The notes under the pieces were generated by a model. It did no database searches. It saw only the letters and a list, made by a program, of their open reading frames with translations, and was not told the DNA's origin. From positions 496,001 through 560,000 of the forward strand of contig NZ_CP107961.1 of NCBI RefSeq assembly GCF_036077095.1: a DNA stretch of 64,000 bases, given 5' to 3'. A program made the position numbers and the translations under genes. Of the stretch, positions 45,237 through 47,540 are shown piece by piece (the stretch's first letter is position 1; each line of letters starts with the position of its first letter). The stretch comes from Streptomyces sp. NBC_00376. Lineage in GTDB: Bacteria > Actinomycetota > Actinomycetes > Streptomycetales > Streptomycetaceae.

Positions 45237-45307
45237 GGCACTGTCACGTTGGCGGGCGGCGTGGGAGGAACCTCGACGTTGATCATGCTGGAGGGGGATC
45301 GTCCGTG

Positions 45308-45536
45308 GTGAGCGCGTTGCCGTCGTATAAGGGGCACCGGTACCCGGTCGAGGTCATCTCCCACTGCGTGTGGCTGTGCTTCCGCTTTCCGCTCAGCTTC
45401 CGTGAGGTGGAGGAGCTGATGCTCCGGCGCGGTGTCACCGTCTCGTACGAGACGGTCCGCCGGTGGTGTGTGAAGTTCGGGCTGGCCTACGCCGACGGAC
45501 TGCGCCGCCGACGGCCCCGGCCCGGGGACAAGTGGC
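45308..45536 (+). pseudogene. IS6 family transposase, N-terminal part before the IS110 insertion
   Basis: From GTG 45308: VSALPSYKGHRYPVEVISHCVWLCFRFPLSFREVEELMLRRGVTVSYETVRRWCVKFGLAYADGLRRRRPRPGDKW, the zinc-finger-less HTH start of IS6 transposases. It is cut right after the KW codons, directly before the catalytic HLDEV, by the IS110. Confidence 0.85.
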
Positions 45537-45589
45537 TCTACCTTCTTGAACGGGTTGGTCCTCCCGTTCGTAGGGTGAGGACACCCAGG

Positions 45590-45720
45590 GGAGCTGGGTG
45601 TGGCTGACAAGTGGCTGCCGTTCGTGGCTTCAGGTGCTTGGCCGCCTGGCTCCCCACGACGACTCGGCCGCCGATTGGGAAGTGCGAACAAGTCGCTGTG
45701 TAGAGCAATGCCGGCGAGGT
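45590..45720 (+). ncRNA. IS110 bridge RNA candidate with four matching guide segments
   Basis: Bridge RNAs of IS110 elements carry a target-binding loop and a donor-binding loop, each with a left and a right guide. Here GACAAGTGGCT (45606-45616) equals the left target flank (45527-45537). TTCAGGTGC (45629-45637) pairs with the right flank GCATCTGGA (46974-46982) with seven Watson-Crick and two G-U pairs. ATTGGGAAG (45674-45682) equals the element's right end (46966-46974). GTAGAGC (45700-45706) is the complement of core plus left end GCTCTAC (45535-45541). The order target-left, target-right, donor-left, donor-right is that known for bridge RNAs. RNA ends are not defined. Confidence 0.8.
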
Positions 45721-45761
45721 CGTCCGTGGTACGCAAGGCATGTACGACCGAATGGAGCACG

Positions 45762-46958
45762 ATGAGCCGGATATGGGCGGGAACCGACTGCGGCAAGACC
45801 CACCACCACTGCCTGGTCCTGGACAGCGAGGGCGACACGCTGCTGTCGCGTCGGGTGGCCAACGACGAGCCGGAACTGCTGAAGCTGATCGGTGACGTCC
45901 TGGACCTCGCCGACGGCGGCAAGACGACCTGGGCGCTTGACATGACCGGCGGCGAGCCCGGCCTGCTGATCGCCCTTCTGGTCAACCATGGCCAGGAGCT
46001 CGTCTACATCCCCGGTATCGCGGTCAACCGGGCCACCGACAGCTACCGCGGCCAGGGCAAGACGGACGCCCGTGACGCCCGCGTGATCGCCGACCAGGCC
46101 CGGATGCGCCGCGACCTCCAGCCGATCCGCCCCGGCGACGAAGCCACGCTCGAGCTGCGGCTGCTGACCGACCACCGCGTCGATCTGGTCGCCGACCGCA
46201 CCCGCACCACCAACCGGCTCAAGGCCCTGCTGAACAGCATGTTTCCGGCCCTGGAACGGGCCCTCGACCTGGGTAACGTCGGCCCGCTGGTGCTGCTAAC
46301 CGGTTACCAGACACCGGCAGCGATCCGCCGCGCGGGCAGTCGGCGGCTGACCGCCTGGCTGCGCAACCGCAAGGTCTGCAACGCTGCTGCCCTCGCCGAG
46401 AAGGTGGTTGAGGCCGCCGAGCGCCAGCACACCGCCGTCGTGGGTGAGAAGGCCATCGCGAAGATGGTGCACACCCTCGCCAAGGAGGTGATGGTCCTCA
46501 ACGAGAAGATCACCGAGACCGACAAACTCATCGAGGGCCGGTTTCGCGAACACGAACTGGCCGACGTGATCCAGTCCATGCCCGGCATCGGCACGATCCT
46601 CGGTGCCGAGTTCCTCGTCGCCGTCGGCGGCAGCCTGGACGCCTTCCCCACGGCCGACCGGCTCGCGGCCTTCGCCGGCGTGGTCCCCGCCCCACGCGAC
46701 TCCGGCCAGGTCAGCGGTAACGACCACCGACCGACGAGATACCACCGTCGCCTGCAGCGCGTCTTCTACATCTCCGCGCTGGTCAGCGTCCAACGAGACC
46801 CCAACTCACGGAAGTTTTACGACCGCAAGCGCGCCGAGGGGAAACGGCACGTCCAGGCCGTCCTCGCGCTCGCACGCCGTCGCGTCAACGTCCTGTGGGC
46901 TCTGATCCGTGACCGACGGTGCTACCAGGTCATACCCTCAGTGACGACGGCGGCTTGA
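45762..46958 (+). CDS. IS110 family transposase (DEDD recombinase)
   Basis: A 398-aa recombinase from ATG 45762. The RuvC-like N domain has WAGTDCGKTHHHCLVLD (first Asp), WALDMTGGEPGLLIALL (Glu) and QGKTDARDARVIADQAR (DxxD). A coiled middle part follows (EVMVLNEKITETDKLIEGRFREHE), then the Tnp C domain SMPGIGTILGAEFLVAVGGSLDAFPTADRLAAFAGVVP and YHRRLQRVFYISALVSVQRDPNSRKFYDRKRAEGKRHVQAVLALARRRVNVLW, with the catalytic Ser region. All expected residues look present. The frame is open upstream to 45600 but that part belongs to the non-coding left end. Confidence 0.9.
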   Translation: MSRIWAGTDCGKTHHHCLVLDSEGDTLLSRRVANDEPELLKLIGDVLDLADGGKTTWALDMTGGEPGLLIALLVNHGQELVYIPGIAVNRATDSYRGQGKTDARDARVIADQARMRRDLQPIRPGDEATLELRLLTDHRVDLVADRTRTTNRLKALLNSMFPALERALDLGNVGPLVLLTGYQTPAAIRRAGSRRLTAWLRNRKVCNAAALAEKVVEAAERQHTAVVGEKAIAKMVHTLAKEVMVLNEKITETDKLIEGRFREHELADVIQSMPGIGTILGAEFLVAVGGSLDAFPTADRLAAFAGVVPAPRDSGQVSGNDHRPTRYHRRLQRVFYISALVSVQRDPNSRKFYDRKRAEGKRHVQAVLALARRRVNVLWALIRDRRCYQVIPSVTTAA

Positions 46959-46973
46959 CATCGGCATTGGGAA

Positions 46974-47461
46974 GCATCTGGACGAGGTCTTCATCAAGAT
47001 CAACGGCGAGCGGGAGTACCTGTGGCGGGCCGTCGACCAGGACGCAAACGTGCTCGACATCCTCGTCCAGGGAAGCGGGACAAAGCCGCGGCCGGCGCTT
47101 CTTTCGCAGGCTGATGAAGAAGACCGGTGCGGTACCGCGGGTGGTCGTCACGGACAAGCTTCGCTCCTACGGTGCCGCTCACCGCGAGGTCATGCCCTCC
47201 GTCGAGCATCGCTCCCACAAGGGCCTGAACAACCGGGCCGAGAACGGTCATCAGCCCACCAGACAGCGTGAACGCGCGATGAAAGGCTTCCGCTCCGCCG
47301 GCGGAGCACAACGCTTCCTGTCCGCGTTCAGCGGCATCTCACCCCACTTCCGACCCCGCCGCCACCTCATGGCCGCACCCGACTACCGCGCCGAAATGAC
47401 CGTCCGCTTCACCATCTGGGAGCAGATCACCGGCGCCACCGGCCTGCCCACCACACCCTGA
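46974..47461 (+). pseudogene. IS6 family transposase, catalytic part after the IS110 insertion
   Basis: The gene resumes as HLDEVFIKINGEREYLWRAVDQDANVLDILVQ (Asp 1), slips frame near 47075-47095, then FFRRLMKKTGAVPRVVVTDKLRSYGAAHREVMPSVEHRSHKGLNNRAENGHQPTRQRERAMKGFRSAGGAQRFLSAFSGI (Asp 2 in VTDK, Glu in RAENGHQP) and ends GATGLPTTP. Apart from the IS110 split it carries at least one frameshift, so the copy was defective in any case. Confidence 0.85.
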
Positions 47462-47540
47462 ACACACAGCCGGAACCCGACCGCACCACACCCTGTCACG
47501 CCGTCAGACACCCACCCAACAACGTGACAGTGCCCGCCGT

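Follow-up and report, generated by a model that had tools for sequence, protein, structure and literature searches.

An IS110-type element of Streptomyces with predicted bridge-RNA guides to IS6-family transposase genes

Described RNA-guided elements and the present locus

IS621 is an IS110-family element with a leader upstream of the recombinase gene, a bridge RNA whose two loops carry left and right guides for the target and for the donor, a dinucleotide core, and a promoter that forms at the circle junction (as set out in PMC11208160 and PMC11208158). The element analyzed here resembles IS621 in its recombinase family, in the position of its leader, in having a dinucleotide core, in two predicted loops with the corresponding guides, and in a putative circle-junction promoter. 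However, the core is GC instead of the CT described for IS621, the recombinase has 398 aa compared to 328 aa in IS621 (PDB chain 8wt6), the right target guide is supported over five bases past the core, unlike that of IS621 in these accounts, and the target is a transposase gene, whereas IS621 is described to insert into REP sequences.

Target choice by an RNA from the non-coding region is also described for ISEc21 and for the seekRNAs of IS1111/IS110 elements, where targets differ from one IS or group to the next and the transposases of the IS110 subgroup comprise 395–455 aa (PMC11187229). In contrast to the present case, these are other elements with other targets, and the RNA of IS1111 elements is encoded downstream of the gene (PMC11187229). 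The same source provides examples of elements aimed at mobile DNA: IS4321/IS5075 of the IS1111 family are, like the element studied here, of the RNA-guided type and directed at another transposon, but their target is the terminal inverted repeat of the Tn21 family and not a transposase coding sequence, and ISKpn4, ISPst6, and ISPa11 (IS1111) are likewise aimed at repeated or mobile DNA, namely integron attC sites and REP sequences (PMC11187229). The kind of element is thus known, with IS1111 members aimed at Tn21 ends and attC sites as precedents for mobile-DNA targets in this source. New here is the target, i.e., the catalytic codons of a rival transposase; no IS110 element aimed at IS6 genes was found in the open-access literature by title or abstract.

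The element, its recombinase and its predicted bridge RNA

The locus lies in a 64,000-nt stretch (the window) of the 10.04 Mb genome of Streptomyces sp. NBC_00376, which is assembled in three contigs. Without its core, the IS110-type element occupies positions 45537–46973 of the forward strand and consists of a 225-bp leader and a 398-aa recombinase gene; its ends are set by guide, core, and flank, and all 11 copies in the genome are identical over 1437 bp. A sequence-only reading of the window had drawn the element from 45537 to 46975. A core GC is present at 45535–45536, where it is common to the target and the circle junction, and again at the right boundary (46974–46975), so that the element proper stops at 46973. 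No terminal inverted repeat was seen by eye at the two IS110 ends.

The interrupted gene encodes an IS6-family transposase and is split between the codons for DKW and those for HLDEV, with the IS110 element in sense orientation. The D of LDE in this target presumably corresponds to the first aspartate of the catalytic DDE triad. The host IS6 is bounded by exact 15-bp inverted repeats (at 45237 and at 47520); its left part (45237–45536, forward strand) comprises the terminal repeat at 45237–45251 and a gene start near 45305, and the right part (46974–47534, forward strand) ends in the repeat at 47520–47534 and has a shifted frame, i.e., the gene carries an additional frameshift to the right of the insertion. 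The two pieces match positions 1–70 and 111–196, respectively, of the NCBIfam profile transpos_IS6 (NF033587), with 69.8 bits on 45305–45535 and 67 bits on 47081–47458, both being fragments that score under the whole-protein cut-off of 125. Pfam DDE_Tnp_IS240 (PF13610) matches the right piece only, and the left piece had no match in the Pfam profile search. By eye, no clear target-site duplication was found at the outer ends of the host IS6 copies.

The recombinase gene (45762–46958, forward strand, stop codon included) matches PF01548 (DEDD_Tnp_IS110, 5.6e-52) and PF02371 (Transposase_20, 1.6e-20), both over their cut-offs, as well as NF033542 (IS110 RNA-guided transposase) with 224 bits against a cut-off of 140, and phmmer comparison with the PDB returned the chains of IS621 and ISCro4. 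Judged by eye and by spacing, residues D9, D59, D101, and D104 fit the spacing of D11/E60/D102/D105 in IS621, so that D seems to occupy the usual E position of the DEDD motif; the C-terminal domain contains an SG motif. The stretch 45762–46955 also shows a weak match to a TIGR-Tas endonuclease model (40.1 bits, cut-off 100).

Four guides had been proposed in the leader in the order, and with the shared GC core, of described bridge RNAs, and sequence comparison bears out all four positions. GACAAGTGGCT (45606–45616) equals the left flank GACAAGTGGC (45527–45536) plus the first base of the element; the left target guide itself, GACAAGTGGC at 45606–45615 of the forward strand, covaries with the flank in relatives. 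The right target guide TTCAGGTGC (45629–45637, forward strand) pairs with the right flank GCATCTGGA (46974–46982) through seven Watson-Crick and two G-U pairs. On the donor side, the left guide ATTGGGAAG (45674–45682, forward strand) equals the right end of the element (46966–46974), and the right guide GTAGAGC (45700–45706, forward strand) is the reverse complement of the core plus left end, GCTCTAC (45535–45541). Identity of left donor guide and right end was found in 29 of 40 parsed loci, with one base off in seven and the other four probably misparsed.

The predicted bridge RNA of ~180 nt would span 45550–45730 of the forward strand, starting downstream of the circle-junction promoter and ending where the second stem closes. 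RNAalifold on 29 leaders predicts a pair of long stem-loops that both contain an internal loop and, farther in, a small hairpin: a target-binding one (45588–45655, forward strand) with loop strands at 45605–45616 and 45629–45640, and a donor-binding one (45658–45724, forward strand) with loop strands at 45671–45683 and 45697–45711. Each of the four guides falls within one of these consensus loops. In the consensus stems 98.9% of cells pair, compared to at most 61.4% in slid versions, a count that leaves out the five pairs placed by RNAalifold within the donor loop and the pairs beyond the two stem-loops. The target-binding helix is paired in 97.9% of cells, with three pairs changed on both sides, and the donor-binding helix, which hardly varies, in 99.4%; covariation is modest because the stems hardly vary. 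The expectation of the sequence-only reading that the guides would lie in internal loops is thus confirmed for the consensus but not for the minimum free energy fold of the single sequence, in which CAAGTG of the left target guide pairs with TGCTTG at the right one and the donor loop does not form. The energy of the latter fold is no better than that of shuffles (z -0.74). An Rfam search of the window gave no model at gathering score.

Circle-junction promoters are known for IS110 elements (PMC11208160). In the present element, the joined ends would bring TTGACA of the right end (46954–46959, forward strand; -35-like) to a distance of 17 bases from TACCTT of the left end (45539–45544, forward strand; -10-like), and the circle junction would thereby create a promoter with consensus-like boxes. 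In 33 of the 38 loci whose two ends were parsed, TTGAC precedes the -10-like box by 17 bases, and in two more by 18 bases; the misses are L005 (TTGATT) and two cut-down elements, L049 and L055, whose right end is probably misparsed. The -10-like box reads TACCTT in 31 loci, TACCGT in five, and TACTTT and TGCCTT in one each. In the inserted state the boxes lie apart, so that expression of the RNA would require transcripts reading through from IS6 or from other promoters.

Judging from ends, guides, and flanks, it is highly probable that this IS110 element, with a bridge RNA encoded at its left end, is guided to the IS6 gene by ordinary IS110 bridge-RNA recombination. By analogy to IS621, on which we model transcription of the bridge RNA, pairing, and chemistry, excision would join the ends in a circle and form the promoter TTGACA-17-TACCTT, which would drive the bridge RNA. 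The circle junction (right end, GC, left end) would then be bound in the donor loop and GACAAGTG-GC-AYCTGGA, i.e., the codons around LDE of IS6, in the target loop, with strand exchange by the recombinase at GC. The product would be an IS6 gene interrupted between DKW and HLDEV by the element in sense orientation.

Insertion sites and guide–flank covariation

Ten of the 11 copies in the source genome are located in IS6 genes at the same codon, all in sense orientation, with GACAAGTGGC as the left flank and GCATCTGGA or GCACCTGGA as the right flank. A single G in the right guide pairs with both the CAC and the CAT flanks at the histidine codon, and sites of both types are filled. In two of these copies the IS6 gene ends soon after the insertion (L066) or is frameshifted at it (L065). 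The eleventh copy (L059) lies within an HTH_26 gene at TACAAGTGGC / GCACCTGCG, where, core included, the left guide fits at 9 of its 10 bases and the right guide at its first seven. The 17-mer GACAAGTGGCAYCTGGA occurs in the same genome at three intact sites and, with one mismatch, at four more, 7/7 of them in IS6 genes; hence 10 of the 13 exact sites are filled, whereas none of the four sites with one mismatch is (Fisher p 0.015).

In other genomes the same left guide was found at L001, L002, L040, L044, L055, L056, L119, L122, L123, and L125. These are ten additional, distinct locations, and the left flank is IS6 in 10/10. Over all genomes, this guide thus occurs at 21 distinct locations, of which 20 are IS6 genes by their left flank and the exception is L059. 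Copies in unrelated sequence without a guide match, which the sequence-only reading had named as evidence against itself, were not found among these 21 locations, as L059 is a near-match; its claim that the guides are aimed at IS6 transposase genes is well supported. The right flank is readable and matching in 16 of the 20 IS6 locations (L123 with one changed base); the right end is not readable in L044, L055, and L056, and L125 has a foreign right side. In these counts, L126 equals L002 over 1.5 kb, L106 equals L056, and L107 equals L040 in the printed flanks, each pair being counted once; L121/L119 and L123/L120 are one place each, and L109, a leader fragment without the left end, is left out of the 21. 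L040 and L056 carry the right guide TTCAGATGC, which in L040 would give an A-C mismatch with its own flank. An exact guide search of 392 genomes of the genus gave three positives, the source genome included, and the exact 17-mer was present in 4 of 61 genus genomes, at seven intact sites, 7/7 in IS6 genes.

Several of these loci show further peculiarities. At L119, on a plasmid of NBC_00053, the IS110 element is itself split by an insert of ~1.2 kb whose genes carry the annotations transposase and winged helix-turn-helix protein. The leader fragment L109 (G142:C163) contains the IS6 target guide but no left end and lies outside any recognised element. At L125 (W02:C1:154681 region), TCTACC adjoins the right end, with the junction at GC, and lies within an open frame that, by eye, resembles a group II intron reverse transcriptase; since GCTCTACC at this site is also the element's own left end, the locus looks like a donor-type junction with a left-end look-alike.

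A different origin of this distribution would be that the IS110 element once entered a single IS6 and was afterward carried along by IS6 transposition or homologous recombination, with the guides irrelevant to its spread. L061, L062, and L069, which reside in near-identical IS6 hosts with different surroundings, could be such carried copies, as could L122 and L002/L126, which likewise share much of their IS6 flanks. However, the left 200 nt of the ten IS6 hosts in the source genome are 72–95% alike, save for L061/L062/L069 (99–100%) and L060, in which an indel shifts the ungapped count, so that at least eight host classes at ≤95% left-flank identity surround an identical element. At a distance of 17–40 nt, identity on the left/right is 0.76/0.60 between filled sites, 0.74/0.70 between filled and empty sites, and 0.70/0.82 between empty sites; the left values are slightly in favor of carriage (0.76 vs. 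0.74), but identity plotted against distance reveals no raised tract adjoining the element. In addition, L059 lies outside IS6, and relatives obey the same guide–flank rule at other genes. Carriage or gene conversion may thus explain a few copies, e.g., L061/L062/L069, but not those in diverged hosts, and as a general explanation it is very unlikely compared to guidance by the bridge RNA.

The relatives comprise 56 related-element loci in Streptomyces and a few Streptacidiphilus, Actinacidiphila, Kitasatospora, Yinghuangia, and Actinopolymorpha. In 34 insertions, which represent 30 distinct guide pairs, 6.74 of the 8 non-core bases of the left guide agree with its own flank (4.51 after shuffling) and 4.18 of 7 bases of the right guide pair with its own flank (2.05 after shuffling); 0 of 20,000 permutations were as good on either side. 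This set consists of 32 of 44 parsed rows plus L059 and L124; the 12 dropped rows (L002, L040, L044, L055, L056, WIN, L015, L016, L018, L028, L033, L041) either repeated the guide and target of a kept row or had a guide or flank that was not parsed. Left positions -6 to -3 match in 31–32 of 34 insertions (15–20 expected), the outermost left base is weakly supported (11/34 vs. 6.9 expected), and positions -8 and -7 vary little across the family. On the right, positions 1–5 past the core pair in 19–28 of 28 insertions (11–14 expected), whereas positions 6 and 7 are at expectation (11/28 vs. 10.6 and 17/28 vs. 16.7). Accordingly, the right 9-mer originally proposed is backed by the family over the five bases past the core but not over its two outermost ones. 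In L010 and L031 one additional base separates the guide match from the core, and L026 and L034 have one left-guide mismatch.

These data also bear on the idea that the target is recognized by the recombinase protein itself, the leader being similar to the target only through descent or capture of the flank. The low variation at left-guide positions -8 and -7 would permit a protein preference there, but left positions -6 to -3 and right positions 1–5 vary among elements and follow the guide, and the segments sit in loops where IS621 has its guides (PMC11208160), which makes this idea less probable still than carriage. Chance matches in a G+C-rich leader, though short G+C-rich words do recur in Streptomyces DNA, are a negligible prospect in view of the permutations on both sides and of the intact 17-mer sites in the 61 genus genomes, all of which are in IS6 genes. 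RNA guidance hence remains the preferred reading.

In a tree of 32 recombinase genes, which does not contain the IS6-guide elements L044, L055, L056, L119, L122, and L125, the five IS6-guide rows group together in a single clade (100/99), surrounded by relatives with other targets, and a single origin is the simplest reading. Other targets were observed among the relatives. L007, with another guide (TTCATCGCGC / TTCGAACGC), is inserted antisense in an IS6 gene at the conserved RERAMKGF, and pieces beside L006, L012, L017, L027, and L124 match DDE_3, DUF4096, Transposase_mut (two loci), and rve_3. Together with L007, transposase or integrase pieces amount to 6 of 10 loci, the ten having been picked by eye from 37 loci tried and considered without a background rate. 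Many relatives (L006, L010, L014, L022, L024, L027, L029, L030, L035, L038, L046) share a left guide TCAnnnnGC, which reads GCN NNN TGA on the other strand, and insertions are frequently found at gene 3' ends in this frame. With the inserted end of the ATTAGGAAGC clade, a TAA would follow two codons later. Targeting of stop codons in general was considered and rejected, being only a trend (13/25 TCA-guided insertions vs. 10/48 in the background; Fisher p 0.008, with kinship ignored) that does not apply to the IS6 clade.

Possible specialization on IS6 and its meaning

Ends, guides, their placement in consensus loops, repeated insertion at one site, and guide–flank covariation are all direct observations. 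A further-reaching and tentative interpretation, to which we give somewhat less than even chances, is that this IS110 lineage has specialized as an RNA-guided parasite of IS6 and acts in effect as a natural drive against a rival transposon. The guide reads conserved codons that IS6 can hardly change, its one G accepts both CAC and CAT, and most exact sites are filled, which would fit an adaptation; the confinement to one clade and few host genomes speaks against a strong claim of this type. The guide may instead simply have happened to hit a multicopy gene. If the parasite interpretation is true, IS6 gives IS110 a harmless, multicopy, and orientation-fixed home.

Regardless of how the association arose, an identical element at the same codon of many diverged genes provides a clean natural experiment on bridge-RNA programming. 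Counts of filled and empty sites, one near-cognate miss, and relatives with other guides amount to data on specificity and guide switching, and these concern the GC-core branch of IS110-type elements, whereas the structural work cited here is on IS621. With its insertions inside the active-site codons of another transposon family, this apparently RNA-guided element also offers a concrete case in which to ask whether mobile elements turn RNA guides on one another.
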